From Gemmataceae bacterium (lineage in GTDB: Bacteria > Planctomycetota > Planctomycetia > Gemmatales > Gemmataceae), in NCBI GenBank assembly GCA_947490035.1, contig CANLGS010000002.1, forward strand, positions 1-27,683: a stretch of DNA of 27,683 bases, read 5' to 3'. The position numbers were made by a program, and so were the translations under genes. How positions within the stretch are numbered: the stretch's first letter is position 1; the number at the start of each line of letters is the position of its first letter. Below are positions 2 through 24,025 of this stretch, in pieces. The notes below the pieces were generated by a model, which searched no databases, was not told where the DNA came from, and saw nothing but the letters and a program-made list of their open reading frames with translations.

Positions 2-730
2 ATGCTGCTGCTCGCGGCCGGCGGGTTCGCGCTCGTGCGCATCCTGAACGAGGTCGGCGTGCGCTCGGTGCCGGTGTACGCGCTCGTGGGTGCGGGCATC
101 TGGTTGGCGGTGTACAAGTCCGGCGTTCACCCGACGGTCGCGGGCGTCATGCTCGGGCTACTCACGCCGTCGGACGTGTGGGTCGGGCGCGACGCCTTGC
201 GGCTCTCACTGACGGACCTGAAGGCGCGAATCGAGGACGCCGACGACAACCCGGACGCGGACGAGTTGGAGATGATGGCGTTCGCCGCGAGGGAGAGCGT
301 GTCGCCGCTGGAACGGCTCGAACACCGCCTGCACCCGTGGGTGGGGTTCGCCATCATGCCGCTGTTCGCGCTGGCGAACGCGGGGGTTCACATCGACGTG
401 AAGATGGTCGCGGAGCCGGTGTCGGTCGCGGTGATGCTGGCGCTGTTCCTGGGCAAACCCGTCGGCGTGATGCTGTTCGCCTTCGCCGCGGTGAAGTGTG
501 GTATCGCGAAGTTACCGCAGGGCGTGACGTGGCCGGTATTGCTCGGCGGCGGGTTCCTCGCGGGCATCGGGTTCACGATGTCGCTGTTCGTCGCGGGTCT
601 GGCGTTCGCGGGCGAGCCGCACCTGCTGGCCGACGCGAAGGTCGGCATCCTGCTCGGCTCGGTGTTAAGTGCGCTCGTCGGCGTCGGGTTGCTGGTACTG
701 ACGTTGCGGAAGGGTGAACCGCGACCGTAA
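2..730 (+). CDS. nhaA: Na+/H+ antiporter NhaA, C-terminal part (5' truncated by window edge)
   Basis: Inner-membrane antiporter that exchanges Na+ or Li+ for H+ in pH and sodium homeostasis. The 242 visible residues are almost entirely hydrophobic segments, broken by one acidic hydrophilic loop (about residues 65-105). The signature GIGFTMSLF near residue 190 is typical of the NhaA C-terminal half. Family members are usually 380-450 residues, so the first Met here is internal and the real start lies before the window. The last residues (GEPRP) and the TAA stop are encoded by the left arm of a long palindrome at 713-788. The gene therefore ends inside a repeat that it shares with the convergent peptidase gene. 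Identification rests on the C-terminal motif and the membrane topology. Confidence 0.9.
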   Translation: MLLLAAGGFALVRILNEVGVRSVPVYALVGAGIWLAVYKSGVHPTVAGVMLGLLTPSDVWVGRDALRLSLTDLKARIEDADDNPDADELEMMAFAARESVSPLERLEHRLHPWVGFAIMPLFALANAGVHIDVKMVAEPVSVAVMLALFLGKPVGVMLFAFAAVKCGIAKLPQGVTWPVLLGGGFLAGIGFTMSLFVAGLAFAGEPHLLADAKVGILLGSVLSALVGVGLLVLTLRKGEPRP

Positions 731-788
731 GGGAGCGGGTGGAGTTCGCCTCACCCGTCCACCCGCTCCCTTACGGTCGCGGTTCACC
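713..788. terminator. 31-bp-arm perfect palindrome between convergent genes; likely bidirectional terminator
   Basis: Arms at 713-743 and 758-788 are exact reverse complements around a 14-nt loop. The palindrome contains the nhaA stop codon and lies 3 bp from the stop of the convergent peptidase gene, so it could terminate or stabilise both transcripts. Each arm can also fold on itself: CCGC-GA-CC, loop GTAA, GG-GA-GCGG, which is a GNRA-type loop above a tandem G.A mismatch. No T-run follows, so rho-independent termination in the classical sense is uncertain. Confidence 0.7.
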
Positions 789-791
789 AAC

Positions 792-2816
792 TCACTTCTT
801 CAGATACTTCTCGAACCACGCGAGATCCCATTCCATCTTCGCTGTGCGGAACGACAGCGTGCCGAGTCCGTGCGGCTGACCGGGGTACACGCACAGCTCC
901 GTCGGCACCTTCTTGTACTCCTTCAGCGCGCGGTACAACATGCGGCTGTGCCCCGGCGGGCAGCGGTCGTCGTTCCCGCCGACGTGAATGAGCGTCGGCG
1001 TCGTCACATTGCCGATGCCGTAGATCGGCGAGGTCTTGCGGTAGATGTCCGGTTGTTCCCACGGTAGCCCCTTCTTGAACACGATGGGGTACGCGGGTTC
1101 GTCGTTGAAGCCCCACTCCGCAACCGTATCGAGGATGCCGGCGCCGCTGCTCGCGGCCTTGATCTTCACCGCCGGGTTCTTCATCGCGATGAGGCAGTTC
1201 GTGAGGTAGCCGCCGTTGCTCCAGCCCATGACGGCGATCCGCTCCGGGTCCGCGATGCCCTCTTTGATGAGGTGTTGAATCCCCGCGACGATGTCCTTCA
1301 CCTCGATGTCGTTCTCGTTGCCGACGAGGTCGGTGACGAACTTGTCGCCGTAGCCGGTGGACCCGCGGTAGTTGGGGCACAGCACCGCGTAGCCTTTCGC
1401 GGCGAAGTAGAGCCGGCCGTTGTGCGGGTCGAATCGCTGATCGTTGTAACTGGCGGTGGTCGGCCCGCCGTGGATCGCGACGACCAGCGGCAGCGGCTTG
1501 TCGCCCTTCTTCCAGCCGTGCGGCAGTTCGAGCGGCCCGCCAACGCTCACGCCGTCCGGTGCCTTCCAGGTGACGTGTTCGACGGTGGGGAACTTCCAGC
1601 TCTCGGTGTGCGGGTTGGGGTCCACGAGTGGTTCTTTTTTATTCCGGCGGAGGTACAGTTTAGGGAAGTTCTCACCCGACCCGACGACGGAAACACCCGA
1701 ACCGCTCTTCTCTTCGTTATCGCTGGGATAAGGGGCGTAGGCGTAAACAACTGCACCTGGGTTGTAGGACTCCGAGCGCCATTCTCTCTCGACGACGCTG
1801 TGCTCGACGATTCCAACCGAGCCGTCTTTGTCGCCCAGGTAGGTTACGAATTCGCTTGATCGCCACTGTAGCGGAGAGCCGTAGCCGCGTACCTGAAACC
1901 CCTCGTTGCGTTTCAGCTTCTTGGTACTCCAGTTCGCGCCCTTCAATTCTCCGATGATGATCTCCGCGGGGTACGCGTCGAAAATCGCGCAGAAGGCGAA
2001 GCGGGTGCCGTCCGGATTCCACGCGAGACCTTCGAGCCACGCATACGGACTCGCGGCCTTCTTGCGGTACACGTCCGTCGGCGGGGTGGTGATCTTGCCG
2101 TCCTCCCACACGTCCACACGCGACTCGCCTTCCGACTTAATCACTGTGTCGTCGATGGCGGTAACCATCGCGACCTTCTTGCCGTCGGCCGTGACCGCGA
2201 ACTCGCGGATGTAACGCTTGTCGTTGACGATCAGTTTGGGAATTGAACCCGGATTCCTGATCGACATCAGCACGCTGACGGTGCGCGAGCCGTGGCCGTA
2301 TTCGATCTTGTCGAACTTCTTGCGAATCGCGCTGAAGTCGTCGTCGTCAGTTGTGGTCTCATCCACGGTGAAGAAAACCAAGTCGGCTTTCGGGGCGTAG
2401 TCGAAGCCGACGATGCCGTTCTTCAGGTCCGTGATCGCTTCCGGCTTGCCGTCGAGCGGCACCTTCCACACCTGCGTCTTCGCCTTCGCGCCGCGGTTCG
2501 ACACGACGTACACCGCCTTCCCGTCGCCGCTCCATTTCGGGTGCCGGTCGTTGGCGCGGTCGGTGGTGAGCTGCCTCGGCTTGCCCTTGCCGTCGGTGCC
2601 CACGACCCACAGTTCCGTCGCGCGTTTGTCGGATTTCTTGTCCCACGTGGCGAGGCAGTACGCGACCTGCTTGCCGTCGGGCGAGAGGGCGATTTCGGTG
2701 ATGGCGTTCACGCTCGCGTAGTCAGTGGGAACGATGTCGTGCGTGCGTTCCGGCGGCGCGGCAGACAACCGCCCGACGGCGGCGACGAAGAGGCACAAAA
2801 CAAACGCGCGGCGCAT
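792..2816 (-). CDS. Secreted S9 family peptidase (acylaminoacyl-peptidase / S9C-like)
   Basis: A 674-residue serine peptidase of the prolyl oligopeptidase clan, expected to cleave short peptides outside the cytoplasm. It has an N-terminal signal peptide (MRRAFVLCLFVAAVGRLSA), then a WD40/TolB-like beta-propeller (about 25-400), then the alpha/beta-hydrolase domain. The triad is visible: Ser533 in GWSNGG, Asp616 in GGNDDR, His649 in GQPHGL, with the oxyanion-region motif HGGP upstream. I chose the start at 2816 because GAGGAA lies 5 nt before this ATG and the signal peptide then begins properly; an ATG 27 bp further upstream would add residues before it. A stretch around 1620-1760 is less GC-rich than the rest. 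S9B/DPP-IV type is an alternative, but the GWSNGG motif favours S9C. Confidence 0.9.
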   Translation of the reverse strand: MRRAFVLCLFVAAVGRLSAAPPERTHDIVPTDYASVNAITEIALSPDGKQVAYCLATWDKKSDKRATELWVVGTDGKGKPRQLTTDRANDRHPKWSGDGKAVYVVSNRGAKAKTQVWKVPLDGKPEAITDLKNGIVGFDYAPKADLVFFTVDETTTDDDDFSAIRKKFDKIEYGHGSRTVSVLMSIRNPGSIPKLIVNDKRYIREFAVTADGKKVAMVTAIDDTVIKSEGESRVDVWEDGKITTPPTDVYRKKAASPYAWLEGLAWNPDGTRFAFCAIFDAYPAEIIIGELKGANWSTKKLKRNEGFQVRGYGSPLQWRSSEFVTYLGDKDGSVGIVEHSVVEREWRSESYNPGAVVYAYAPYPSDNEEKSGSGVSVVGSGENFPKLYLRRNKKEPLVDPNPHTESWKFPTVEHVTWKAPDGVSVGGPLELPHGWKKGDKPLPLVVAIHGGPTTASYNDQRFDPHNGRLYFAAKGYAVLCPNYRGSTGYGDKFVTDLVGNENDIEVKDIVAGIQHLIKEGIADPERIAVMGWSNGGYLTNCLIAMKNPAVKIKAASSGAGILDTVAEWGFNDEPAYPIVFKKGLPWEQPDIYRKTSPIYGIGNVTTPTLIHVGGNDDRCPPGHSRMLYRALKEYKKVPTELCVYPGQPHGLGTLSFRTAKMEWDLAWFEKYLKK

Positions 2817-2884
2817 GAAGATTCCTCGTGAATGGCGAAGCAATGGATTGGAACAGCGCGGCAGGGACGAATCAACACATGAAA

Positions 2885-3010
2885 GCAGAAGAGCCGCAGA
2901 TGACGCAGAGGGACGCAGATCAAGACAGAAGACAGGAGTGTTTTGAAGAACTCTGTCTCTTGGCTTTAATCTGCGTCCTTCTGCGTCATCTGCGGCTCTT
3001 TTCTTCTCTT
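2885..3010. repeat. Imperfect long inverted repeat (CGCAGAT-type)
   Basis: Two arms of about 45 nt built from GCAGATGACGCAGA-like units pair imperfectly around a centre containing TTTTGAAGAAC. It fills the gap between the stop of the response regulator (3014) and the start of the S9 peptidase (2816), both on the minus strand. Similar 'CGCAGAT' palindromes recur in planctomycete and related genomes (recalled, not searched). It may act as a terminator for the regulator transcript. Confidence 0.65.
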
Positions 3011-3013
3011 CTG

Positions 3014-4441
<1,428 letters not shown>

Positions 4442-4528
4442 GTGGTTTCGCCGCGAGGGTCGGTGAGTTCCTTCAATCTTACTCGAAACATACAACGATC
4501 ACCGCGACCACTGCTAACGGAGCCGCAC

Positions 4529-5329: not shown

Positions 5330-5339
5330 CAACGCGGTG

Positions 5340-6068: not shown

Positions 6069-6075
6069 GTTCGCG

Positions 6076-8268
6076 TTACTCCACTTCTTCCCACACGCTA
6101 CTCGATGCGCCGATGTCTTCAAAGTACGTTAGCATCCGCTGGTAGAACGGGTCGTTCGCGAGCGTGGCGCTGTCGCCGATGACGAGCAACTTGCGGCGGG
6201 CACGCGTGAGCGCCACGTTCGTGCGCCGCGTGTCCGCGAGGAAGCCGATTTCGCCTTCGTTGTTCGACCGCACCAGCGAAACGACAATCGCTTCCTTCTC
6301 GCGACCCTGGAAGCCGTCCACGCTGTCGATCTCCAGACCGTCCACGTTCGCGAGCCGTTCGCGGAGCAACCGCACCTGCGCCCGGTATGGCGTGATGACC
6401 CCGATCTGCGAAGGCAGTACACCCGCCGCGAGCAGCAGGCGGACCTTCTTGACGGCCAGTGAAGCCTCTTGCACGTTCCGCCGACTGCCGGTGTCTTCTT
6501 CGAGTTCCTCGTCGTAGCTCGCGCCCGCCGTGTCGATGAACTGCACCGGCAGTTCCGTGAGCGGTTCCGCGGTCACGCCCGGTAGGTCGCAGAGGCGGTG
6601 CGTCGCGACGCTCTCGTGCGAGATGAGGTTTCCGTCGTAGAACTCCGCGTTCGAGAAGCCCATGATCGCGCTGTTCATACGGTGCTGAACGGTGAGCAAG
6701 CGCGATGCGCTTGCACCGAACCGCGCGACGAGCCGTTCCATGAGGCTGACCGAAAGCCCGCGTTCGGCGGCTTCCGGCGAGATGATCGTGGGCGGTAACT
6801 GGCAATGATCGCCCGCGAGGATGAGCTTGTTCGCGCGCAGCAGCGGCACCCAGTTCGTCGGTTCGGTGGACTGACACGCCTCGTCAATCACGACCACATC
6901 GAACCGCCGCTGACCGAGCAGTTGGCTGTCGAGGCCGGTGAGCGTGGCGCAGATGATTTTGGCTTCGTCCAGCACGCGCTCGATGGCGAGCGCCTGGAGC
7001 TTGCGGACTTCGGAGAGCATGTCGCGTGCTTCGCGCCGGAGGGCGGCCTTCTCGCCCGGCTGCGGTCTTTCCTTCGTCCACTTGTCCGCTTGGCGGAACA
7101 GCGCGAACGCGTCGCGTGCGACCTTGCGCGCCTGCCGCGCGTCGGGGTGCTTCTCCGCGAGGATGTCGATTGCCCGCGCGCGAAGCTCCGGCATCACGCG
7201 GGCCGGGTGGCCGAGCCGCACCGGGAGTTCGTCGGCCGCGAGCAGCTTTTCGAGCAGGTTATCGACTGCGTGGTTGCTCGGCGCGCACGCGAGTACCGTG
7301 TCGCCGTTCGCCACTGCCGCGCGGATGAACTCGACGACGGTGGTGGTTTTGCCCGTGCCCGGCGGGCCGTGGATGATCGCGAAGTCCTTCGCGGCGAGCG
7401 CGAACGCGACCGCGGCCTGTTGGGGTTCGTTGAGGTTCGAGGCGAGCGGGGGGCGTAAGCCCCCTGTTGAAGCACTGTCATTCACTTCGCCGTCGTGAAT
7501 GGGTGGTGTTGTTTCTAACAGGGGGCTTACGCCCCCCGCTCGCCCAAGCAAGACTTCGCGTAGCTCCGCGAGTCTATCCCCACTCGCGCTCGCGGCGCGG
7601 CGGAGCGCGTCTTGCTGGCGCAAGCGCGATACTTCGTCCGGCGAAAGGTCGAGACGCCAAACGGCTTCGTCGGGCAGGTCGTCGTCCGGCGGGTCGATGG
7701 CGACACCGATGGTCGCGGCGTCGCGGTCGTAGATTACGCCGCGATACGACGGCATCCGGCGGTTCACGTTCGTCTGGCTCAGCACCACCGGCGAACCCGG
7801 ACCGAGGCGCGACGGCGGAAGCGGTTCGTTCAGCGTCTTGCGGCCGAACGTCAGGAGCAACCGCCCGCCCAGGCCGAACTCCGAATCGCGCAGCACCAGT
7901 CGCGTGAGCGTGGCGCCGTCGCCCACGGCCGAACCTTCTTCCGCTTGCGCGCGGCGGCGGGCTTCTTCCTGTTCGGCTTTGGCTTCGAGGTCGAGCAAGT
8001 TGGAGAGGTTGCCGAAGTGGTCCGCGTTGGTGAAGTCGCCCTTGCCCGCGAAGCGCACCCGCACCGGCTTGTCTTGAAGCGTGGCGCCGTCGAGCGCGGT
8101 CACGATCGCGGCGGCTTTTGCGTCCGGCACTTCGACGGTCGCGCCGCGGCCGACGAACGCGATCTTCCCGATGTGCTTGCTGTCGATCTTTCCGCCGGTG
8201 CAGACGAACGACAGCACGACGCCGGGCGAACACCGCGGCGGAACCGGGTCGATGTGGATGAGTGCCAT
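6076..8268 (-). CDS. Upf1/IGHMBP2-like SF1B helicase with N-terminal DbpA-type RNA-binding domain
   Basis: A 730-residue cytoplasmic superfamily 1 helicase. The first ~75 residues (with SKHIGKIAFVGRGATVEVP and RVRFAG) resemble the C-terminal RRM of the RNA helicase DbpA. After a linker comes the Q-motif region NLNEPQQAAV, Walker A GPPGTGKTTT (Lys307), motif II VVIDEACQ (about 460), GDHCQLPPTI, QHRMN, ITPYRAQV, IDSVDGFQGRE and TNVALTRARRKL. These are the ordered SF1B motifs of the Upf1/SMUBP2 group, which unwind RNA or DNA 5' to 3'. Residues 242-276 are encoded by an inserted palindrome (7441-7544) that keeps the frame. The downstream TIGR02996 gene starts 7 bp after this stop. Substrate preference is unknown; the RRM makes RNA or RNA/DNA hybrids plausible (inference). 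Confidence 0.9.
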   Translation of the reverse strand: MALIHIDPVPPRCSPGVVLSFVCTGGKIDSKHIGKIAFVGRGATVEVPDAKAAAIVTALDGATLQDKPVRVRFAGKGDFTNADHFGNLSNLLDLEAKAEQEEARRRAQAEEGSAVGDGATLTRLVLRDSEFGLGGRLLLTFGRKTLNEPLPPSRLGPGSPVVLSQTNVNRRMPSYRGVIYDRDAATIGVAIDPPDDDLPDEAVWRLDLSPDEVSRLRQQDALRRAASASGDRLAELREVLLGRAGGVSPLLETTPPIHDGEVNDSASTGGLRPPLASNLNEPQQAAVAFALAAKDFAIIHGPPGTGKTTTVVEFIRAAVANGDTVLACAPSNHAVDNLLEKLLAADELPVRLGHPARVMPELRARAIDILAEKHPDARQARKVARDAFALFRQADKWTKERPQPGEKAALRREARDMLSEVRKLQALAIERVLDEAKIICATLTGLDSQLLGQRRFDVVVIDEACQSTEPTNWVPLLRANKLILAGDHCQLPPTIISPEAAERGLSVSLMERLVARFGASASRLLTVQHRMNSAIMGFSNAEFYDGNLISHESVATHRLCDLPGVTAEPLTELPVQFIDTAGASYDEELEEDTGSRRNVQEASLAVKKVRLLLAAGVLPSQIGVITPYRAQVRLLRERLANVDGLEIDSVDGFQGREKEAIVVSLVRSNNEGEIGFLADTRRTNVALTRARRKLLVIGDSATLANDPFYQRMLTYFEDIGASSSVWEEVE
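7441..7544. repeat. In-frame palindromic element (two GGGGGC-GTAA-GCCCCC arms) inside the helicase gene
   Basis: Perfect 28-nt arms at 7441-7468 and 7517-7544 flank a 48-nt centre. The arms are identical to those at 23936-24025. On the coding strand the element reads GGLRPPLA in one arm and AGGVSPLL in the other and contains no stop. It falls in the linker just before the helicase Q-motif. Confidence 0.88.
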
Positions 8269-8552: not shown

Positions 8553-8621
8553 TCGACGTTCCCCCACCGCGTCCTTGCGTGGTCGCGGGGTGATAGCGTC
8601 GCGCGCTGGAGAAGTCAACCT

Positions 8622-8766
8622 CTTGAGAGCGCGGAGTTCGGAGCGCGGAACGCGGAGTGAGGAGAATGAAGACAAGAACCAAAGATCGCGCCCGACTTCG
8701 CTTTTGCCTACGCTCTCTTCATTCTCTTCACTCCGCGTTCCGCGCTCCGAACTCCGCGCTCTCAAG
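8622..8766. repeat. Long inverted repeat (GCGGAGTTCGGAGCGCGGA-type) overlapping the NIF3-like 3' end
   Basis: Arms of about 50 nt (8622-8670 and 8716-8766) are near-perfect reverse complements built from CGCGGAGT-like units, ending CTTGAG and CTCAAG. The right arm encodes the last ~12 residues and the stop of the NIF3-like protein. The left arm lies in the spacer before the small membrane-protein gene. Confidence 0.8.
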
Positions 8767-9852
8767 TGGGTCGCGCTCGGCGCGGCTGGCCCACGCGGTC
8801 ACGGTCGGCCAGTCGGCGGCGAGCTTCGCGGCCAAGTCTTCGACCGCGGGCCGCTCGGTCGCGTAGTGGCCCGGCAGGATCAGCGCGACGTTCGCGCCGC
8901 GCGAGGCCAGCGCGTCGTGGAACCGCACTTCGCCGGTGAGGAACACGTCGGCGCCGCGCTTGGTCGCGTCGGTCAGGAACTCGCCGGCCGCGCCGCACGC
9001 GACCGCCACCGTGCGCACCGGGCGGTTCGCGTCGCCCACGATCTGCACCGCGTTCGCGCTCAACGCGGTCTTCACGCGCCGCGCCAGTTCGCCCAGTGTG
9101 GTATCGGCCTCAAGTGAGCCAATGCGCCCTTCGCCGCCGCTGGTATTGGGCTTCAGCGGGTACACGTCGAACGCGGGTTCCTCGTAACTGTGGACCTTCC
9201 GCATCGCCGCGACCGCGCTCGAAACCAGTGCCTCCGGTACGACGACTTCCAGACGCCACTCAGCAACTTCTTCACGCCGGCCCTTTTGCCCCACAACGGG
9301 GTTTGTCGAATCGGTGCCGTAGAACGTGCCGGTGCCCGCGAGCCGGAAGCTGCACTCGCGGTACTGGCCTATCACCCCCGCGCCCATTGCAAACAGCGTA
9401 TCGGAGAGCTTCGACAAGTCCGCGTCGGGGACGTACACGACGAGCTTACACTGCCGCCGCGACTCGCGCGGTCGAAGAGGCACCGCGTCCGCGATGCCGA
9501 GGCGGGCGCACAGCATGTCGTTGATCCCGCCGGCACAGTTGTCGAACGCGGTGTGCGGCGAATACACCGCGACGCCGGCCCGCGCCAGTGGCCGCACCGC
9601 CTGGCCGTCGGGCGTGTTCGGCGTGAGCTTCTTCGCGCCGCGAAAGAGGATCGGGTGGTGCGAAACGACGAGGTTCGCGCCTTCGCGCACGGCTTCTTCG
9701 GCCACATCCGGCGTGAGCGTAAGGCACGTCATCACGCGCGCGACGGGCGAAGCCGGGTCGCCGAGCAACAGGCCGACGTTGTCCCAGTCGGCGGCGGTGC
9801 CGCACGGGGCGAACCGCTCCAGGTACGCGGCGAACTCGGCAACGGTGGGCAT
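8728..9852 (-). CDS. NIF3-like dinuclear metal-centre protein
   Basis: A 374-residue member of the NIF3/YbgI (DUF34) family, hexameric proteins with a two-metal site. Many are annotated as GTP cyclohydrolase I type 2, but the role is uncertain. Visible signatures: ADWDNVGLLLGD (21-32), VVSHHPILF with His65/His66, HTAFDNCAGGIND (His100, Asp104), and near the C-terminus FLTGEVRFHDAL and GHYATERP. The middle region (about 130-230) is the inserted PII/CutA-like domain seen in the longer family members. The start at 9852 has GGAG upstream. The C-terminal tail ESAEFGARNAE is not family sequence: it is translated from the repeat at 8622-8766, which also supplies the TGA stop. Confidence 0.9.
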   Translation of the reverse strand: MPTVAEFAAYLERFAPCGTAADWDNVGLLLGDPASPVARVMTCLTLTPDVAEEAVREGANLVVSHHPILFRGAKKLTPNTPDGQAVRPLARAGVAVYSPHTAFDNCAGGINDMLCARLGIADAVPLRPRESRRQCKLVVYVPDADLSKLSDTLFAMGAGVIGQYRECSFRLAGTGTFYGTDSTNPVVGQKGRREEVAEWRLEVVVPEALVSSAVAAMRKVHSYEEPAFDVYPLKPNTSGGEGRIGSLEADTTLGELARRVKTALSANAVQIVGDANRPVRTVAVACGAAGEFLTDATKRGADVFLTGEVRFHDALASRGANVALILPGHYATERPAVEDLAAKLAADWPTVTAWASRAERDPLESAEFGARNAE

Positions 9853-9879
9853 GGGAAAGGCTCCAGAGGGTTCACCGCT

Positions 9880-10005
9880 CAGGAGAAGAAGCTCACGCAA
9901 AGACGCAAAGACGCAAAGAAGGCAAGAGAGAAAACAGTTCTTAAAGAACTCAATCTTCCTTGTCTTCTTTGCGTCTCTGCGCCTTTGCGTGAGCTTCTTC
10001 TCCTG
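9880..10005. repeat. Long inverted repeat (CACGCAAAGACGCAAAG-type)
   Basis: Arms of about 46-50 nt (9880-9926 and 9956-10005) made of tandem GACGCAAA units pair nearly perfectly, with a central AGTTCTTAAAGAACT near-palindrome. It lies between the M28 peptidase stop (10013) and the NIF3-like start (9852). It could end or stabilise the peptidase mRNA. Confidence 0.8.
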
Positions 10006-10012
10006 ATCTCAC

Positions 10013-12784: not shown

Positions 12785-12923
12785 CCAGTGTTCAGTGTTC
12801 AGTGTTCAGTTCAGAAACGCCGCGCTGACTCAGTCTTTCCGACTCCGTAACCTGTACCGGATGTGGAGGCAGCAAACCCTCCGACTGAACACTGAACACT
12901 GAACACTGAACACTGAACACTGG
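12785..12923. repeat. Inverted heptamer repeat (GTTCAGT / ACTGAAC arrays)
   Basis: The left arm (12785-12811) holds GTTCAGT units in tandem. The right arm (12884-12923) holds about five tandem GAACACT units, its reverse complement. The arms enclose about 72 nt. The element starts 4 bp after the lipoprotein stop and ends 4 bp before the cysC ATG, so it occupies essentially the whole intergenic space. The unequal unit number suggests slippage. Confidence 0.85.
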
Positions 12924-13639: not shown

Positions 13640-13787
13640 CCCTCTCCCCTTGCGGGAGAGGGTGTCGGCGCTTCGCCGACGGGTGAGGGGTGAGCGGTTC
13701 CACGGATTACGCGAAGCTCTCTTCGCGTGTGAAACGACCCCTCACCCGTCCGCGAAGCGCGGCCACCCTCTCCCGCAAGGGGAGAGG
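13640..13787. repeat. Compound palindrome of the CCCTCTCCC...GGGAGAGGG type
   Basis: Left and right ends (13640-13662 and 13765-13787) are hairpins of CCCTCTCCC with GGGAGAGGG. Inside are GTCGGCG/CGCCGAC and a central perfect hairpin ACGCGAAG-CTCT-CTTCGCGT (13709-13728). The motif GGGTGAGGGGT pairs with ACCCCTCACCC. The element lies 28 bp after the cysC stop. Similar units occur in many GC-rich bacteria (recalled, not searched). Confidence 0.75.
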
Positions 13788-14160: not shown

Positions 14161-14862
14161 ATGCCGGCTCCGAAAATCACCCGCGCCGTCAACCACCCGG
14201 CCGAAGGGTTCCACCCGGTCGCCGTCCCCGGCGCGCCCGGCCGGCCGGTGCGCGTGTACCTGCCGACCGACTATCAGCCGAAGTACGCGTATCCCCTCGT
14301 CGTGCTGTTTCACGCCGAGGGCGAGTGCGAAGAACACGCGGCCCGGCTCGTGCCGCAACTGAGCCGCCGCAACTACATCGTGCTGTGTCTTCGCGGGTCG
14401 GTGAAACTCGGCGCTCGCTCCGACGGCCGCCCGGCGTTCGGCTGGGGCGACGGCGCCCCGGATCGCGGGACGAAGGCCGCACTCGCGTTCGTGATGAAGC
14501 ACTTCAGCGTTCACGCCGACCGCGTGTTCCTCGTCGGTGTGGGTGAAGGTTCAACCGCGGCGTACCGTCTCGGTCTGGAGATGGGCGATCGCGTGGCCGG
14601 CGTCGTCGCGCTCAACGGCCGGTTGCCGAAGGGCCGGGTGCGCGCGAACAAGTTGCGCGTGCTGATCGGCCACGGCACCGCGAACCCGGTGGTGCCGGTG
14701 GCAGAAGCCCGCCGCGCCGCGACCGCACTGACGCGTGCCGGGGCGACCGTGCGCGTCACGCGCTACGCTGCCTCCCACCGCGCCCACCCCGACATGCTCG
14801 GTGATGCGAACCGCTGGATCATGGCGCAGGTGATGGGGAAATTAGTGAGCAGTGGGCAGTGA
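14161..14862 (+). CDS. Alpha/beta-hydrolase fold protein (phospholipase/carboxylesterase-like), probably catalytically dead
   Basis: A 233-residue protein with the fold of LpqC/PHB-depolymerase or carboxylesterase-type hydrolases: VRVYLPTDYQ, then LVVLFHAEGEC, NYIVLCLRG, and the strand-turn-helix DRVFLVGVGEGSTAAYRL. In active members that turn is G-x-S-x-G. Here it reads G126-V-G-E-G130, with Gly where the nucleophilic serine should be. The usual acidic residue in the G-x-x-D-P-x-V-P motif is also changed (GTANPVVP, Asn175). Candidate His206/His209 remain. It may be a binding protein or use a different mechanism (inference). The start at 14161 gives the family N-terminus; only a weak GGGTTG precedes it. 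The last residues (LVSSGQ) and the stop come from the repeat at 14844-14966. Confidence 0.75.
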   Translation: MPAPKITRAVNHPAEGFHPVAVPGAPGRPVRVYLPTDYQPKYAYPLVVLFHAEGECEEHAARLVPQLSRRNYIVLCLRGSVKLGARSDGRPAFGWGDGAPDRGTKAALAFVMKHFSVHADRVFLVGVGEGSTAAYRLGLEMGDRVAGVVALNGRLPKGRVRANKLRVLIGHGTANPVVPVAEARRAATALTRAGATVRVTRYAASHRAHPDMLGDANRWIMAQVMGKLVSSGQ

Positions 14863-14966
14863 GCAGTGGGCAGGTGAGAACAAGCAGGAGCCAGAACGCA
14901 GACGAAGTCTGCTTCCTGACTCCTGCTTTCGTTTTTCTGCCCACTGCCCACTCGGCACTGCCCACT
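14844..14966. repeat. Inverted repeat of GCAGTGA/GGGCAGT units between convergent genes
   Basis: The left arm (14844-14873) has AGTGAGCAGTGGGCAG units and the right arm (14938-14966) the complementary CTGCCCACT units. Inside are AGCAGGAG/CTCCTGCT and a central hairpin GCAGAC-GAA-GTCTGC (14898-14912) with a C-GAA-G triloop. The element contains the hydrolase stop and reaches into the acyl-CoA dehydrogenase stop, so it separates two convergent genes and probably terminates both. Confidence 0.8.
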
Positions 14967-16146
14967 ACTTAAACGCTTCCCACTCTTTGCCCAGCACGGC
15001 GGCGGCGATCTTCAACTTCAAGATTTCGTCGGTGCCCTCGTAGATGCGGCACACGCGCACGTCCGTCAGGTGCCGGCCGGGGCGGTACAGCGTGCTCCAC
15101 CCGCGACCGCCGAACACCTGCACGGCACGGTCGGCCGCGTCCCACGCCGCGTTCGTCGCGAAGAACTTCGCCTGCGCCGCGAGCAAGTCCGCCTGCCGCA
15201 TCAACTCCTTGTCGGCCGGTGCCGCCGCGGACTTGTCCTTCATCTCGGCCGCGCGAAAGAGCAGCGCGTCGCTCGCGACGCGGTCCATCTCGATGTGCGC
15301 GATGTGGTCCTGAACGAGTTGGTGCCGCGCGATCTCCTTGCCGTGCTGCTTGCGCACCTTCGCGTACTCGATCACCTCCGCGAGGCAGTCTTCGATCACG
15401 CCCAAGCAGCCCGCCGCGACGCTCAACCGGCCGCTCACCAGCGTGCCCATCGCGACGCGGAACCCGTCGCCCTCGGCGCCCAAGAGGTTCTCCGCGGGCA
15501 CGACCACGTCGTGCATCTCGAACATCGCGGTGTTGGACGTGGGCATTCCCATCTTCGCGTTCGCGGCGAAGCTCTCGACCTCGAACCCCTTCGCGTCGGT
15601 GTCCACGACGAACGCCGAGATGCGCCCGGTTCCGACCTGCCCGACCGGGTAGCCGAACGCGACGACCGCGTGCGCGATGCCGCCGTTGGAGATGAGGTAC
15701 TTCACGCCGTTGAGGACGTAGGAATCGCCCTTCTTCTCGAAGGTGGTGGTCATCTCGCGCGGGTTGCTGCCGGCGTCCGGTTCGGTCAACCCGAACGCGA
15801 GCACCTTCTCGCCGCGCGCCGCCGCGGGCAGATACTTCCGCTTGAGCGCTTCGCTGCCCCACGTCTGAATCGGGTACGCGCCGATGCTGAGGTGACCGGA
15901 GAAGAACGTCCGGACCGTGGTGCCTTCGCGCCCGATGCGCGTGAGCGCCTTGAAGTAGTTCACCGCGTCCGCGCCGCGCCCGCCGTACTCTTCGTGGACG
16001 TTCATGCCGAGCAGGTTGTGCTTCTTCGCGAGCGGAACCACCTGATCGTTGAACTGCCGCTCCGCGTAGGCGAGTTCTTCGGCCGGGCGCACCTCCTGGC
16101 AGAACGCTTCGGTGTCTTCGGCCAACTTGATTGGGTCGAACGCCAT
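14965..16146 (-). CDS. Acyl-CoA dehydrogenase
   Basis: A 393-residue FAD flavoprotein that oxidises acyl-CoA to trans-2-enoyl-CoA and passes electrons to electron-transfer flavoprotein, in fatty-acid or branched-chain amino-acid breakdown. Its length is normal for the family. It shows the FAD/substrate motif AFGLTEPDAGSNP, then LNGVKYLISNGG, and near the C-terminus VQVFGGRGWST and CRIYEGTDEI, where Glu370 is at the position of the catalytic base in medium-chain enzymes. The start at 16146 has GGAG 8 nt upstream; the frame extends upstream through the YjbR-like gene without family sequence. The TAG stop overlaps the edge of the palindrome at 14844-14966. Chain-length specificity cannot be read. 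It starts 53 bp after the YjbR-like gene on the same strand, so cotranscription is likely. Confidence 0.93.
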   Translation of the reverse strand: MAFDPIKLAEDTEAFCQEVRPAEELAYAERQFNDQVVPLAKKHNLLGMNVHEEYGGRGADAVNYFKALTRIGREGTTVRTFFSGHLSIGAYPIQTWGSEALKRKYLPAAARGEKVLAFGLTEPDAGSNPREMTTTFEKKGDSYVLNGVKYLISNGGIAHAVVAFGYPVGQVGTGRISAFVVDTDAKGFEVESFAANAKMGMPTSNTAMFEMHDVVVPAENLLGAEGDGFRVAMGTLVSGRLSVAAGCLGVIEDCLAEVIEYAKVRKQHGKEIARHQLVQDHIAHIEMDRVASDALLFRAAEMKDKSAAAPADKELMRQADLLAAQAKFFATNAAWDAADRAVQVFGGRGWSTLYRPGRHLTDVRVCRIYEGTDEILKLKIAAAVLGKEWEAFK

Positions 16147-16199
16147 GACGCGGCTCCGGCGAGTGCGGGGGAGGATACCGGAATTGTACGCGCGGCAGT

Positions 16200-16655: not shown

Positions 16656-16663
16656 GAATCCTG

Positions 16664-16737
16664 CTGAGGCGAGCGGGGGGCGTCAGCCCCCTGATTCTTC
16701 CAACCATCAAGGGGCTTACGCCCCCCGCTCGCCTCAG
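16664..16737. repeat. GGGGGC-type palindrome upstream of the YjbR-like gene
   Basis: Arms CTGAGGCGAGCGGGGGGCG and its complement flank a short centre (CTGATTCTTCCAACCATCAAG region). This is the same family as 4043-4070, 7441-7544 and 23936-24025 but diverged: the left loop is GTCA instead of GTAA and one C is missing in the right arm. It sits in the divergent gap, 9 bp from the YjbR-like start. Confidence 0.85.
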
Positions 16738-16780
16738 AATAGAAATTCCGCCGCTAATCGCCGCGCGGCCGTTTGACCGA

Positions 16781-16786
16781 TATAAT
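16781..16786 (+). promoter_or_regulatory. Candidate -10 box (TATAAT) for the secreted paralog gene
   Basis: A perfect TATAAT lies in an AT-richer patch about 100 nt before the start at 16888. The -35 region is weak (TAATCG, poorly spaced), so the assignment is tentative. Confidence 0.35.
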
Positions 16787-16887
16787 GCCGAGTCTGCCGG
16801 GACGTTCACCGCTCGCCCCGAGTGCCGCTTCCCGGTTCACCCGCCGCCACTGCCTCCGCCTCTCCACGACGCTGCCGAGGGCTACTC

Positions 16888-18138: not shown

Positions 18139-18172
18139 TCGCGGGGCGTGCGGTTGCCGTCGTATGTTGTAA

Positions 18173-18215
18173 CGGGGCGCGTCGGCGCGCCGGATTGTGG
18201 TTGGCGCCGGCCCCG
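18173..18215 (+). other. Bulged stem-loop between the two paralog genes
   Basis: CGGGGC pairs with GCCCCG and CGGCGC pairs with GCGCCG. This gives 12 bp with a 4-nt bulge (GCGT) on one side and a 15-nt loop. It is 35 bp after the first paralog and 68 bp before the second. No T-run follows. It may attenuate or process the transcript. Confidence 0.4.
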
Positions 18216-18282
18216 CGATGCGTCATCCTTGAGGTGTCGCGGGATGCGCGAACGATCCGAACATGCGTTTGAGGGGCAATTC

Positions 18283-19680: not shown

Positions 19681-19690
19681 TACGGATTCT

Positions 19691-19763
19691 CTTGTGGCAC
19701 AGACATTCCTGTCTGTGCGGTCGGCCCCTCGAAGCACACAGACAGGAATGTCTGTGCCACAAG
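19691..19763. repeat. CACAGACA-TTCC-TGTCTGTG palindrome between convergent genes
   Basis: Perfect 27-nt arms (19691-19717 and 19737-19763) flank a 19-nt centre. Each arm is itself a hairpin of CACAGACA with TGTCTGTG, with loop TTCC on one strand and GGAA on the other. It lies 10 bp after the paralog 2 stop and 57 bp before the stop of the convergent nucleotidyltransferase gene. Peptides from this repeat (AQTFLSV, HRQECLC) appear in the shadow frames. Confidence 0.85.
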
Positions 19764-19819
19764 ACCAAGACAGAAGAATCCGATCGCTCCGTGACCGGAC
19801 GACACAGACCCACCCGTTC

Positions 19820-20392
19820 TCATTTCCGCCGCAACTCGGTACTCGACACGTCGGCCCGGAAGTCCGCCTCCGTCAGCGGGACGAACAACTCCGCGAACTC
19901 CGCGAGCGTGTCCGCGTCCCACGTGCGGAACGCGCCGCCGGCATCGACGCGCCCGCCGATCACCAACCGGCAGCCGCGATCCAACAGCTTGCGCAGCGCC
20001 GCGTCGCGGGCCGCTTCGCCGCCGTAGTATTTCGGGTCAATGACACGAACGGCGGTGTCCCAGCCCAGCACGAACGCGGCACCGGGGAACAGATCGGCCT
20101 TCGCGTCGAAGGTCGCGGCCCGCGTGACCCACACCGGCGCGACGCCCACAAACTGCGCCAGACGGCGCTCCACTTCGTCACGCGGCAACTCGGACTTGTC
20201 GGCGTTCACGACGGACAGTTCAAAGTGAACCTCGGCGCCGAGGTGTGCGGCCGCGGCGGCGGCGAGTCGGGTGTGCCCGTGGTGCAACGGGTTGAACGAA
20301 CCGGGCAGGATCGCGCCCGGCCGCTGCCCGACGCGCGCGGCGCCGGCGGGTTCGACGCACACCACGGGGTGAGTGGAGAGCAGATGCCACAT
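19820..20392 (-). CDS. Cytidylyltransferase-like nucleotidyltransferase (NadD-like)
   Basis: A 190-residue protein with the HxGH nucleotidyltransferase fold. It shows GSFNPLHHGHTRLA (31-44, with HHGH at 37-40 contacting nucleotide phosphates), a central Rossmann region (GAAFVLGWDTAVRVIDPKYYGG), and the C-terminal SSTELRRK (183-190), equivalent to the ISSTxIR motif that closes the active site. The overall pattern is closest to nicotinate/nicotinamide mononucleotide adenylyltransferases, but GWDT replaces the usual G.D, so the substrate is uncertain. The start at 20392 (MWHLLSTHP) lacks a good Shine-Dalgarno. The longer frame starting at 20458 would run through the repeat at 20410-20484 and is less likely. 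Confidence 0.72.
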   Translation of the reverse strand: MWHLLSTHPVVCVEPAGAARVGQRPGAILPGSFNPLHHGHTRLAAAAAAHLGAEVHFELSVVNADKSELPRDEVERRLAQFVGVAPVWVTRAATFDAKADLFPGAAFVLGWDTAVRVIDPKYYGGEAARDAALRKLLDRGCRLVIGGRVDAGGAFRTWDADTLAEFAELFVPLTEADFRADVSSTELRRK

Positions 20393-20409
20393 GAATGCGG
20401 CCGGTGTTT

Positions 20410-20484
20410 GGCGAACCCCGCCCGCAAGGGCGGGGGTAAAGTGACAGGGGAGTCGCACCCCCGCCCTTGCGGGCGGGGTTCGCC
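20410..20484. repeat. CCCCGCCC-GCAA-GGGCGGGG palindrome, downstream of the DPP-IV-like gene
   Basis: Perfect 28-nt arms (20410-20437 and 20457-20484) flank a 19-nt centre. Each arm is itself a hairpin of CCCCGCCC and GGGCGGGG, with loop GCAA on one strand. The last base overlaps the stop codon of the peptidase gene. The arms are identical to those at 22593-22665. Confidence 0.88.
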
Positions 20485-22580
20485 TACTTACTCCGCGGTT
20501 CGACCCCGAGCATGTTCCGCACGAAGAAGTCCATCCTTCGCCGGTTACCGTAGGGCGATTCGGCCGCGCCGTGACCGGCGCCCGGCACGATCAGCAGGTC
20601 GAAGTCTTTGTCCGCTTTGATGAGCGCGTTGGCGACCTGCATCGTACTCGCCGGGTCCACGTTGCGGTCGAGTTCGCCCACCACGAGCATCAGCTTGCCC
20701 TTCAGCTTGTGCGCCTGCGTGACGTTCGACTGCTCCGCGTAGTGCGGGCCGACCGGCCACGACATCCACAACTCGTTCCACCAGATTTTGTCCATGCGGT
20801 TGTCGTGACACCCGCAGTCACTGACCGCGACGGTGTAGAAATCGCCGAACGCGAGGAGGGCACGAGTGCTGCTTTGCCCGCCGGCGCTGCCGCCGTAGAT
20901 GCCGACGCCCTTCGAGATGTCCATCTCCTTGTGCTTCTCGGCTGCGGCCTTGATCCACGGAATGCGGTCCGGGAACCCGCTGTCGCCGAGGTTCTTCCAG
21001 CACACGTCGTGGAACGCCTTCGAGCGCCAGTTGGTGCCCATGCCGTCGATCTTCACGACGATGAACCCGAGTTCGGCCATGCGCAGTTCGGACGGCGACG
21101 CGGTGAAACCCTTGCGCACGTGGTGGTCGTGCGGCCCCGCGTAGATGTATTCGAGGACGGGATACTTCTTCTTCGGGTCGAAGTTGCTCGGACGAATGAT
21201 GTACCCGTGGATGTCGGTCTTGCCGTCGCGGCCCTTCGCTACGAAGCGTTCGGGGAAACTCCACCCAGTTTTCAGGAGCGCGGTCGCGTCGGCCTTTTCG
21301 AGGTCGCACACCTTCTTGCCGTCGGCCGTGCGGCGCAGTTCCGTCACCGGTGGTAGATCGACGCGCGAGTACGTGTCGATGAAGTGCTTCCGATCCGGGG
21401 AGTATTCGACGCTGTGCGTGCCGTCGCCGTCGGTGAGTTTCACGAGACCGGTGCCGTCGAACTTCACGCGCGCGAAGTGGACGTGATACGGGTCTTGCTC
21501 CGCGTGAACGCCGAGAACGCGTAACCACACTTCGCGGGCTTTCACATCGACGCGCTCCACACCGCGAACGACCCACTCGCCCCTCGTGATGTTCTTCGAT
21601 TTGCCGGTTGCGAGATCGACAAGGTAGAGATGATTCCAGCCGTCCTGCTCGCTCATCCAGATGACTTCATTGGTGTCGTCGAGGTAGTTGACGTAGAGCT
21701 TGTTGGCGTAGTCGAAGAACGTCTTGCATTCCTCGTTGACGACGGCCGTGACCTTGCCGGTTTCGGTGTCGATGTCGAGCAGGCGCATGACCGTGTGGCC
21801 GCGCTGGTTGTACGTGAAGTGGAAGTGTTTCGAGTCCTTCGACCAGTGCTGATCGCCGACCGCCCACGGGTTCGGGAACAGTTCGTCGGACACCGCGATT
21901 TCCTTCTTGGTCTCGATGTCAAAGAGGTGCGGCTTCGGCAGCGGGATGGGGTCGCCCGGCTTGAGGTAGTTGTACGTGGACGTGACCGGCTGAAGCTGCG
22001 TGCGTGGCGACGACTCGACGAGCGTGACCTTGCGGTCGCCGCCGGCTTTGGTCTTGACAGCGACGAGTTTCTTCGAGTTCGGCGACCAGTGGAAGCGACC
22101 GTAAGAGTCGTCCGCGGTGCCGTCCGTGCTGAGTTGCGTCTCTTCCTTCGACTTGGCGTCGCGCAGCCAGACGTTGTTGTCCTTGGTGAACGCGGCCCAC
22201 TTCCCGTCGGGCGAGTCACCGCCGCGCCGCGGTTGTTGAAGCACGCGAACGAACGCCGCGTCCTCGTCGCTTTGCTCTTCTTCCTCGAAGCCCTTCTTCT
22301 TCGGCGGGTCGCTTGGCTTCGCGTCCTTCGGCAACTTGTCCTCGGTGACGACCTCGCGCGTGCCCTTCGCGACATCGACCAGTACGAACTCCTTCTTCGC
22401 GTTCTTGTACCAGAAGCGGTCGCCGTCCGGCGTCCAGTTGGCTTCGACCTTCGCGGACGTGACCTTGCCCGCGGTCCACTTGAACACGCTGTTCGCGCGC
22501 TCGTAGTCGTCTTTCGTGCCCTGCGCGGCCGCGAGGGGCGCGAGGATGAGGAGAACGAGAAAGGCGATTGGGCGGCGCAT
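20484..22580 (-). CDS. Secreted S9 family peptidase (dipeptidyl-peptidase IV-like)
   Basis: A 698-residue exported serine peptidase. The signal peptide MRRPIAFLVLLILAPLAAAQ is followed by the DPP-IV-type N-terminal propeller (WTPDGDRFWYKN, DSPDGKWAAFTKDNNVWLRD) and the C-terminal hydrolase domain. The triad: Ser565 in YGGSAGG, Asp638 in GELDRNVDP and His670 in GAGHGAAES. DRNVDP and the YAGPHDH region match the S9B (DPP-IV) group rather than S9C. An acidic insert (KKKGFEEEEQSDEDA) interrupts the propeller near residue 110. The start at 22580 is preceded by AGAGGTT and gives the signal peptide; the longer frame begins in the repeat. Almost identical palindromes lie on both sides of the gene. 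It is on the same strand as argG but separated by a palindrome. Confidence 0.92.
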   Translation of the reverse strand: MRRPIAFLVLLILAPLAAAQGTKDDYERANSVFKWTAGKVTSAKVEANWTPDGDRFWYKNAKKEFVLVDVAKGTREVVTEDKLPKDAKPSDPPKKKGFEEEEQSDEDAAFVRVLQQPRRGGDSPDGKWAAFTKDNNVWLRDAKSKEETQLSTDGTADDSYGRFHWSPNSKKLVAVKTKAGGDRKVTLVESSPRTQLQPVTSTYNYLKPGDPIPLPKPHLFDIETKKEIAVSDELFPNPWAVGDQHWSKDSKHFHFTYNQRGHTVMRLLDIDTETGKVTAVVNEECKTFFDYANKLYVNYLDDTNEVIWMSEQDGWNHLYLVDLATGKSKNITRGEWVVRGVERVDVKAREVWLRVLGVHAEQDPYHVHFARVKFDGTGLVKLTDGDGTHSVEYSPDRKHFIDTYSRVDLPPVTELRRTADGKKVCDLEKADATALLKTGWSFPERFVAKGRDGKTDIHGYIIRPSNFDPKKKYPVLEYIYAGPHDHHVRKGFTASPSELRMAELGFIVVKIDGMGTNWRSKAFHDVCWKNLGDSGFPDRIPWIKAAAEKHKEMDISKGVGIYGGSAGGQSSTRALLAFGDFYTVAVSDCGCHDNRMDKIWWNELWMSWPVGPHYAEQSNVTQAHKLKGKLMLVVGELDRNVDPASTMQVANALIKADKDFDLLIVPGAGHGAAESPYGNRRRMDFFVRNMLGVEPRSK

Positions 22581-22592
22581 GGGAACCTCTTT

Positions 22593-22665
22593 GGCGAACC
22601 CCGCCCGCAAGGGCGGGGGTGTTGGGAGTGGGATCGCACCCCCGCCCTTGCGGGCGGGGTTCGCC
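22593..22665. repeat. CCCCGCCC-GCAA-GGGCGGGG palindrome, between argG and the DPP-IV-like gene
   Basis: Perfect 28-nt arms (22593-22620 and 22638-22665) flank a 17-nt centre. The arms are identical to those at 20410-20484; only the centres differ. The right arm abuts the argG stop codon (22666-22668) and the left arm begins 13 bp before the peptidase start. Confidence 0.88.
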
Positions 22666-23925
22666 TCAGCGTGTTGCCCACGCGGGCACCGTCACCTGGC
22701 CGTTCGCGGCCAGCGCGCGGGCGCTGACTTGCAGCACGCGGAGGAACCCCTCGCTGTCCGCGTGGTCGAACGTACCGATCGCCTCCATGCTCGCGTTCGC
22801 TTCCGAGTACATCTGGTGCGGCACGCCCTCCGCCGACTCGAACTCCGCGCGGCCCTTGTACAGCTTCACCTTGATCGTACCGGTCGCGAGGTCGTTGATC
22901 GGCGCCAGTGCGGAACGCGCCATATGGGTCGCGAGGTCGAAGCCGTAGCCCTGATAGATTTGCTTGGCGACGAACAGCGAGAGCTGGTCGAACAGCTCGC
23001 GCCCGCGGCGGTCGAGGACGAGTTGCAACAGGAACGCATAGGCCGAACCGAGCAGTTCCATGCCGGGCGCTTCGTACACGCCGCGCGACTTGATGCCCAC
23101 GAATCTATTTTCGACCAAGTGGGTCGCGATGCCGACCGCGTGCTTGCCGCCCAGCGCGTTCGCGGTCTGGATGGCCTGGAACGCGGTGGTCGCCTTGCCG
23201 TTGATCGCGACCGGGCGGCCCTTCACGAACTTCACGGTCACGCTTTCGGGCGCGTCGGGCGCGTCTTTCGGAAGCACGCCCATGCCGGGCTTGATGAACC
23301 AGGGTTCCGTCGTGAGGTGTTCCAACACACCTGCTTCGTGCGTGAGACCGAGCAGGTTCGCGTCGGTGGAATAGGGCGCGTTCTTGCTCGCCTTGATGGG
23401 CAGTTTGTGGCCGTTGCAGTAGTCGATCATCTCCGAGCGACCGGGGAACTTCGCGAGGAACGCCCGGTCGCGCCACGGGGCGTACACCGTGAACTCGGGC
23501 GCGAGCATGTTCGTGCAAAGCTGGAACCGCACCTGATCGTTGCCGCGCCCGGTCGCGCCGTGGCTCAGAACCGTCGCGCCGCGTTTCTTCATTTCGGGGA
23601 CCATCCCGGCGACGATGACGTGCCGGCCGATGCCGGTGGTGTTCCAGTACGCGCCTTCGTAGCGTGCCTGGAACTGAATGACTTCGATGCCGCTCTCCGC
23701 GATCATGTCGTGCAGCGGAATCGCGACGTAATCGGCGGCGCCGCAGGCCCGCATTCGCGTCTCGATCTCGTCGAAGTTGGACTCGTCCGGCTGTGCGATA
23801 TCGGCGGTGAAGCAGACGACGGTCACGCCGTTTTCGGTGAGCCACTTGGTAACGGTACAGGAGTCGAGGCCGCCGCTCGCGGCGAACGCGACCGTCTGGC
23901 CCTTCAGGTCGGCAACGGTGGTCAT
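22666..23925 (-). CDS. argG: Argininosuccinate synthase
   Basis: A 419-residue cytoplasmic enzyme that joins citrulline and aspartate with ATP to form argininosuccinate, the penultimate step of arginine synthesis. It shows the ATP pyrophosphatase P-loop AFAASGGLDS (13-22), then HGATGRGNDQVRFQ (citrulline/aspartate-binding region), APWRD and the family segment NAPYSTDANLLG. The start at 23925 (MTTVADLKG) has AGGAGAG 3 nt upstream and fits the family. The frame runs further upstream only as a translation of the repeat at 23936-24025. No other arg genes are adjacent. The gene is divergent from the JAMM peptidase, and the 106-bp gap is nearly all repeat. Confidence 0.96.
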   Translation of the reverse strand: MTTVADLKGQTVAFAASGGLDSCTVTKWLTENGVTVVCFTADIAQPDESNFDEIETRMRACGAADYVAIPLHDMIAESGIEVIQFQARYEGAYWNTTGIGRHVIVAGMVPEMKKRGATVLSHGATGRGNDQVRFQLCTNMLAPEFTVYAPWRDRAFLAKFPGRSEMIDYCNGHKLPIKASKNAPYSTDANLLGLTHEAGVLEHLTTEPWFIKPGMGVLPKDAPDAPESVTVKFVKGRPVAINGKATTAFQAIQTANALGGKHAVGIATHLVENRFVGIKSRGVYEAPGMELLGSAYAFLLQLVLDRRGRELFDQLSLFVAKQIYQGYGFDLATHMARSALAPINDLATGTIKVKLYKGRAEFESAEGVPHQMYSEANASMEAIGTFDHADSEGFLRVLQVSARALAANGQVTVPAWATR

Positions 23926-23935
23926 GAACTCTCCT

Positions 23936-24025
23936 GGCGAGCGGGGGGCGTAAGCCCCCTGTTGTTTGTCATTACAATTACGAAGTGCGGAACCAAGAAC
24001 AGGGGGCTTACGCCCCCCGCTCGCC
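23936..24025. repeat. GGGGGC-GTAA-GCCCCC palindrome filling the argG/JAMM divergent gap
   Basis: Perfect 28-nt arms (23936-23963 and 23998-24025) flank a 34-nt AT-richer centre (TTTGTCATTACAATTACGAAG region). The arms are identical to the element inside the helicase gene. The centre is the only AT-rich sequence in the gap, so promoters for both genes probably lie there. A weak minus-strand TTGGTT with TAATGA at 16-nt spacing is visible. Confidence 0.88.

Follow-up and report, generated by a model that had tools for sequence, protein, structure and literature searches.

GGYGARC-tagged palindromes in a Gemmataceae genome are very probably REPINs of one clade of REP-associated tyrosine transposases

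Background

In Pseudomonas, E. coli and Nostoc, two inverted repetitive extragenic palindromic (REP) sequences with a spacer make up a REPIN (REP doublet forming hairpins), which reaches high copy number and is linked to a REP-associated tyrosine transposase, or RAYT (Bertels and Rainey 2011, PMC3116915; all papers compared here are cited from the parts available to us). Short tagged hairpins, often dimers, with GTAG or CGTC as the tag have been described in bacteria that include the Planctomycetes-Verrucomicrobia-Chlamydiae (PVC) superphylum (Di Nocera et al. 2013, PMC3733652). Among the TnpA-REP enzymes, a G in the hairpin loop is essential for that of Stenotrophomonas and a stem bulge for that of E. 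coli; since single loop bases can thus be essential for REP recognition, a loop-reading enzyme has precedent (Corneloup et al. 2021, PMC8266576). Class 3 of the TnpA-Y1 HuH proteins, found principally in Planctomycetes (11/24), has an extended conserved N-terminus, a Y...Q signature, flanking hairpins with a 5' foot CnGA, and a high host copy number of about 600 in Solibacter (Quentin et al. 2018, PMC6006769). Here we describe the palindromes of a 27,683-nucleotide stretch of a Gemmataceae genome (assembly GCA_947490035.1, contig CANLGS010000002.1, positions 1 to 27,683; below, the window), six of which are pairs of hairpins tagged with GGYGARC.

The tagged hairpins follow one plan: the stem, 8 bp long, begins with the final C of GGYGARC, and the 4-nt loop begins 11 nt after the G of GARC, a fixed spacing that we call the ruler. 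Such palindromes are, with high confidence, REPINs spread by cognate RAYTs of the HuH-Y1 type. They share with the described REPINs the inverted REP pairs with a spacer, the high copy number and the RAYT link, but several copies lie inside reading frames, unlike the REPINs in the available parts of that account (PMC3116915). Neither the GTRG foot tag of the GTAG/GTGG superfamily nor the CGTC tag with AT-opening stems of the CGTC superfamily is found in the GYGARC families, whereas another element of the window, at 19690, fits the GTAG/GTGG kind (PMC3733652). The present REPs obey a fixed loop rule and often have a stem irregularity; the enzymes of Corneloup et al. go with GTAG-tagged REPs (PMC8266576).

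The RAYT clade described below is probably class 3 of Quentin et al. 2018, matched by description: it has the HuH motif, the catalytic Y with a downstream Q, and the extended N-terminal conservation. Its foot is NYGA, mostly GCGA or GTGA (CCGA or CGGA in some loci), as against the CnGA of class 3 (PMC6006769). The fixed ruler, the GYNA loop and the coupling of loop to clade are not among the class 3 features described in the available parts of that paper (PMC6006769), and no Solibacter record was among the best 80 of 262 loci of our scan of GTDB genomes. No description of ruler, GYNA loop or loop-RAYT coupling was found in the literature searched, which took in few subscription papers, and all three seem new.

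Results and discussion

Tagged hairpin pairs in the window and its genome

The source genome (G000) is an incomplete assembly (4.67 Mb, 754 contigs, 68% complete), of which the window is contig 2; our genome sample added 60 contigs to the window, for a total of 896 kb. The window has 13 long inverted repeats, the number given by an earlier note made from its letters alone; those for which the note gave coordinates are present, with arms 94-100% complementary. At a threshold of arms of at least 18 nt with at least 85% complementarity, the sample holds 284 inverted repeats (3.2 per 10 kb), whereas an order-3 Markov control gave 2 in 279 kb (0.07 per 10 kb), making the genome about 44 times richer per base. 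They fall into many families, including GTAG/GTGG-tagged hairpins, GGYGARC-tagged hairpins, CCCTCTCCC types and short-unit arrays.

In six of the 13 window repeats the arms are hairpins of the GGYGARC plan. The repeats had been thought to have no common sequence, but the 713, 7441/16664/23935 and 20410/22593 families all begin with GGYGARC, at both outer ends. DNA folding recovered the mini-hairpins at 713 (loop GTAA, with a 2x2 internal loop), 7441 (GTAA), 16668 (GTCA), and 20410 and 22593 (both GCAA). Hairpin arms had been proposed for four families: the folds stand for 713, 7441/23936 and 20410/22593, while the fourth, at 19690-19764, was rejected as a class member on its tag orientation, since from its tagged end it has a GTGG tag and a TTCC loop, the reported GGAA (19691) being the other strand. 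The CCCTCTCCC element at 13641-13787, credited with a GCAA tetraloop, has in its fold a loop of five nucleotides, CTTGC (GCAAG when read from the opposite strand), and was rejected on loop length. The grouping of 7441 with 23936 was right, and to it we add 16664-16737 and the single copy at 4043.

Two inverted REP hairpins with their tags outward, the arrangement of a REPIN, occur six times in the window, beside one single copy; the genome sample has 32 such pairs (span 64-132, median 85). The REPs published for the REPINs of Pseudomonas, E. coli and Nostoc carry a different tag. The 713 family has matches at 44 or more genomic places, whether to one strand or to both, a lower bound from 40 scored of 94 candidates. 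Its internal loop is GA/GA on the tag strand, a mismatch shared with the CCGGGAGC[GTGA]GCGACCGG and CCCCGAGC[GTGA]GCGAGGGG families.

A RAYT clade bracketed by ruler hairpins

In the related genome G034, 7441-family copies are concentrated around a gene of 191 residues (locus L149), whose protein scores 25.2 bits with the Pfam model Y1_Tnp, just over the cut-off of 23. Homologues at E 0.001 were found in 62 of the 95 genomes of the family, and 70 loci were analyzed, being the stronger part of more than 100 matches listed, with loci of short flanks retained. The catalytic residues H98, H100 and Y160 (HxH + Y) were invariant in all 12 RAYTs aligned, as were the N-terminal T8, Y12, L16, G18 and G22; a Q follows the tyrosine by 4 residues in nine of them and by 5 in L235, L236 and L238. 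In a comparison with solved structures, the 12-row profile hit transposase entries with E values of 2.6e-5 at best, whereas a single RAYT sequence gave no useful match.

Ruler hairpins bracket the RAYT clade both in G000 and in related genomes. A repeated segment was common to the upstream and downstream flanks (E <=0.01) at 60 of the 70 loci, though some segments were only 13-20 nt; nine loci shared none and one had too short a flank. Scanning within 500 bp of the RAYT genes for the fixed ruler, with no condition on the loop, gave at least one hairpin at 53/70 loci and hairpins on both sides at 34/70. The loops of these 212 hairpins were GTNA in 140, GCNA in 31, another GNNA in one, CTTGY in 11 and others in 29. 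GNNA loops thus made up 172/212 near RAYTs, compared with 110/372 in the genome sample and 4/165 in 506 kb of Markov sequence; the non-GNNA loops of the genome sample were at background level per base. As a negative set, other Y1_Tnp loci were scanned whole, after two of 32 had been removed for matching the RAYT clade; a GYNA ruler hairpin was present in 2/30, as against 46/70 for the clade. Of two other hairpin callers, the first demanded recurrence and missed mismatched and bulged stems; the second, which slides register in some loci, found recurrent tagged hairpins at 41/70 loci, with a majority loop of GTNA in 26, GCNA in 6 and another type in 9. The earlier suggestion of a mobilizing enzyme that reads structure, as RAYTs do, is supported by this bracketing.

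Each GGYGARC family of the window can be tied to such a gene. For example, the window's own genome has a RAYT at C150:1634-2140, whose frame is open and encodes HVH and YTRDQ; GGCGAACCCCGGCCGCAAGGCCGGGGGTG stands on either side of the gene with tags outward, and the 20410 and 22593 elements differ from this hairpin by one stem pair. This gene was found only with a RAYT query, and was not among the five Y1_Tnp genes of G000 by Pfam. For the 713 and 7441 families, a cognate HuH-Y1 gene with the same REP was seen only in other genomes. The 713-type stem, with slightly different tags, flanks the RAYTs of L362 (G013), L351, L358 and L236. The 7441-type REP flanks the L149/L169 RAYT, with pairs in G034 and in G011, where the gene is split into two frames.

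The loop rule and the RAYT tree

The earlier note had read the loops as GNRA, an impression that arises because GTAA, GCAA and GTGA members are frequent. Near RAYTs the third position of the loop is almost unconstrained (100 GNRA, 72 GNYA), which does not agree with the purine of an RNA GNRA tetraloop, and the shared loop is GYNA. Loops of the form cGNNAg are unusually stable in DNA.

We took a single REP from every locus that had a ruler hairpin with a GNNA loop and found 29 distinct stems among 45 loci. Seven stem positions pair in 66-100% of cases compared with 36-81% when shuffled, the eighth being fixed by the search; this pairing is partly built in because hairpins were chosen for at least 6/8 pairs. 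That set was also pre-selected for GNNA, and the loop counts given here come from the fixed-ruler scan instead.

Loop class follows the RAYT tree. With bulged stems added, 64 of the 70 loci could be labelled (GTNA 50, GCNA 10, pyrimidine five-base loops 4), and the labels required 10 changes on the tree compared with 19.4 when shuffled, none of 200 shuffles being as low. This was a quick tree, with 35/67 inner branches below 80 and one of the 70 rows too short. The five-base-loop group is one clade on it (L230, L231, L233 and L234), with CTTGT, CTTGC, TTTAT or TTCAT in place of GYNA.

The scan of GTDB genomes supplied a held-out set: of the 80 loci kept from 262 confirmed, 31 were dropped as duplicates and 49 were new. 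GYNA ruler hairpins were found in 20/49, as against 0.4/49 in shuffles; counting bulged stems, the figure rises to 27/49, the shuffle control covering the unbulged count only. On re-inspection of 27 more distant loci, 10 keep the tag and ruler with TTCA or TTTA loops, a further departure from GNRA, and 9 have no ruler hairpin. Five of these 10 are titled Phycisphaerae or Phycisphaerales. Because these distant loci keep both tag and ruler, we infer that the two are older than the GYNA loop. Gemmataceae-type loci have GTNA or GCNA where the distant ones have TTCA, and a changed loop pocket in the enzyme may lie behind this difference.

How the elements may move

Movement of the elements would be driven by the RAYTs, to judge from the sequence comparisons. 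Every REP of the 713, 7441/16664/23935 and 20410/22593 families has a GGYGARC tag, whose C begins a stem of 8 bp with no fixed sequence, and a GYNA loop at a distance of 11 nt from the G of GARC, or 12 nt with a bulge; other families often have one bulge. A single bulged base on the 5' side of the stem shifts the ruler in this way at L187, L205, L206, L208, L211-L214, L218 and L222. When the locus becomes single-stranded, for example as the lagging-strand template, the hairpins could fold; the RAYT would bind tag, stem and loop as a unit and, through its HuH and tyrosine residues, cut the strand at the REPIN ends and rejoin it. The hairpins have a common tag, spacing and loop most likely because one transposase group reads them all. 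Stem differences between families may arise, we propose, through the joint drift of each RAYT lineage and its own REPs. Presence/absence differences at orthologous sites (below) accord with REPIN mobility.

Several observations weigh against this reading. Unpaired copies are common, with 43 unpaired ruler hairpins against 32 pairs in the genome sample. The L149 protein scores 27.9 with the NCBIfam REP-transposase model, far below its cut-off of 80. No ruler hairpin was found at 17/70 RAYT loci, 6/70 still had no loop label after bulged stems were added, and 22/49 held-out loci had no GYNA hairpin of either kind. The 713-linked RAYT subclade was not found at E 1e-20 in three genomes that carry the repeat, G000 (68% complete), G026 and G054. 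The 7441-family RAYT was not seen in G000, where C150 alone was examined of two matches to the RAYT query. Over 61 genomes, RAYTs of the L236 type (E <=1e-28, a cut chosen after the table was seen) were present in 5/13 with the 713 repeat and 7/48 without it, a co-occurrence short of significance (Fisher p 0.11). Neither excision nor a circle was observed.

Beyond the window, we lean towards a broader proposal, that Planctomycetota have a third REP code beside GTAG and CGTC: a YGARC tag, an 11-nt ruler, a free stem with an optional bulge or tandem GA mismatch, and a KYNA loop, read by one RAYT clade. Tag and loop would have been conserved, the stems meanwhile diverging into dozens of lineage-specific families, several of them together in one genome. 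What began as a visual oddity would then be a recognition code open to testing, for which nature supplies dozens of enzyme-hairpin pairs, and the hairpin choice of a HuH transposase could be read from sequence covariation.

Alternative explanations

The elements might instead be transcription terminators or mRNA-stabilizing RNA hairpins, their GNRA loops selected in RNA, a role that the earlier note also allowed and that we consider very unlikely as the explanation of the class. Terminator-like sites, several overlapping, do lie on four GGGGGGC-family arms (4050, 16675, 23940 and 24018). In the window as a whole such sites barely exceed shuffles (18 vs 12.4, sd 3.9; 14 vs 11.5, sd 2.6), which lends the proposed role weak support, and no Rfam match was found at gathering scores. 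Gene context differs between repeat kinds. GTRG-tagged repeats lean convergent (22 convergent, 39 tandem, 4 divergent, 24 genic, 7 edge; n=96), whereas GYGARC repeats do not favour gene ends (2 convergent, 17 tandem, 3 divergent, 16 genic, 2 edge; n=40), being distributed much like the intergenic spaces (78 convergent, 302 tandem, 74 divergent) under a crude gene caller whose frames may run through repeats. RNA selection of GNRA loops was rejected on the nearly free third base, termination as main function is unsupported by the gene-context and terminator-site counts, and neither explains the RAYT bracketing. A side effect of the elements on transcription is possible.

Independent structural convergence of unrelated repeats, the reading that the earlier note proposed, is a shade less likely still. 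The stems of the families differ widely, as it would predict, and the loops vary within the GYNA rule. Common tag, ruler and one RAYT clade nevertheless point to a common recognition code with drifting stems, and the RAYT tree, for all its weak branches, points to the RAYTs of GYNA REPs as one clade. The GTGG-tagged, CCCTCTCCC and short-unit classes of the same window lack tag and ruler, which also speaks against convergence.

Least likely of all, the elements would be miniature inverted-repeat transposable elements of a double-strand DDE transposase, with the hairpins as terminal inverted repeats and the Y1 genes as passengers; the inverted repeats, the small size and the presence/absence at orthologous sites would suit this, but the arms are self-complementary hairpins, single copies exist, and the HuH-Y1 gene lies inside a bracket whose loop class tracks that gene's phylogeny.

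Orthologous sites in relatives

Eleven of the 13 window elements could be compared at orthologous sites in one or more of six relatives; 713 and 22593 were the exceptions. The same type was found at the same place for 8619 in G064 and, by eye and with imperfect arms, in G070, and weakly for 12785 in G075. At the 9879 site two relatives have another short-unit type (CACAGAG). At the other sites compared, relatives either lacked an inverted repeat or had one from a different family. For example, the 16664 site has none in G065 and G064 and another family in G075; the 23935 site in G065 is 68 bp without an inverted repeat; that of 19690 has none in G075, G065 and G064; that of the CCCTCTCCC element has none in 3/3 relatives compared; and at the 8619 site G075 and G065 have 30 bp free of inverted repeats. 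The four relatives compared at 4043 lack the single REP, and by eye G065 (L272) has another hairpin there, tagged GGCGAAC.

The earlier note had placed a repeat at most gene junctions, but the 7441 element lies inside the reading frame of a helicase gene. The linker there (~7436-7550) holds different palindrome families in most of 16 relatives compared. G073 and, by eye, G074 and G105 have a short linker without a palindrome, G076 has its own element of the 7441 family, and others have CCCCTCCCC, CCCTCTCCC (G065), GCCGCTTGCGGC or short-unit repeats. The frame is kept across the site in 15/16 relatives, the halves lying in different frames in G066 (L253). Judged by these alignments, the linker is a landing site common to unrelated repeat classes; gene junctions, and even a helicase gene, would then receive several unrelated palindrome families.

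Features of the window

The positions of all elements are collected in Table 1. The 713 element extends into the 3' end of a gene for an NhaA-type antiporter, which faces a convergent gene for a peptidase S9. The gene that contains the single REP resembles a response regulator, a name given from its translation alone, and the longest frame of the argininosuccinate synthase gene runs through the 23935 element.

Table 1. Inverted repeats and REP hairpins of the window
Positions	Strand	Element	Context
713..788		REPIN, CCGCGACC[GTAA]GGGAGCGG family, tandem GA/GA mismatch; tag-outward REP pair	
2874..3015		Short-unit inverted repeat, CGCAGA type	Neighbour, outside GYGARC class
4043..4068	+	Single REP, GGCGAGCGGGGGGC[GTAA]GCCCCCTG family	Within reading frame of gene 3014-4495 (-)
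7441..7544		REPIN, GGCGAGCGGGGGGC[GTAA]GCCCCCTGTT family	In frame within superfamily 1 helicase gene 6076-8268 (-)
8619..8769		Short-unit inverted repeat, GCGGA type	Neighbour
9879..10006		Short-unit inverted repeat, ACGCAAAG type	Neighbour
12785..12923		Short-unit inverted repeat, CAGTGTT units	Neighbour
13641..13787		CCCTCTCCC palindrome, hairpin in arm	Not GYGARC class
14840..14970		Short-unit inverted repeat, AGTGGGC type	Neighbour
16664..16737		REPIN, family of 7441, loops GTCA and GTAA	Between divergent genes
19690..19764		REPIN-like pair, GTGG-tagged, CACAGACA[TTCC]TGTCTGTG	Other superfamily
20410..20484		REPIN, GGCGAACCCCGCCC[GCAA]GGGCGGGGGT family	
22593..22665		REPIN, same family as 20410	
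23935..24026		REPIN, GGCGAGCGGGGGGC[GTAA]GCCCCCTGTT family	Upstream of conserved part of argininosuccinate synthase gene

The GTRG tag occurs in the window as a pair only at 19690-19764, with one unrelated single match at 26582. No transposase was identified for the CCCTCTCCC element or for the short-unit arrays of the window. Most of the array types (2874, 8619, 9879, 12785 and 14840) have further copies in the genome sample. A second RAYT type in G000, at L162 (G000:C581; 2805-2944 and 2996-3658), adjoins a GTAG-tagged REP pair (GTAGTCATCACG...), so that two REP codes are present within one genome. Other Y1 transposase genes lie near palindromes of further families, at L161 (2346-2476), L009 (1260-1311) and L006 (163-318), which suggests additional transposase-repeat pairs.

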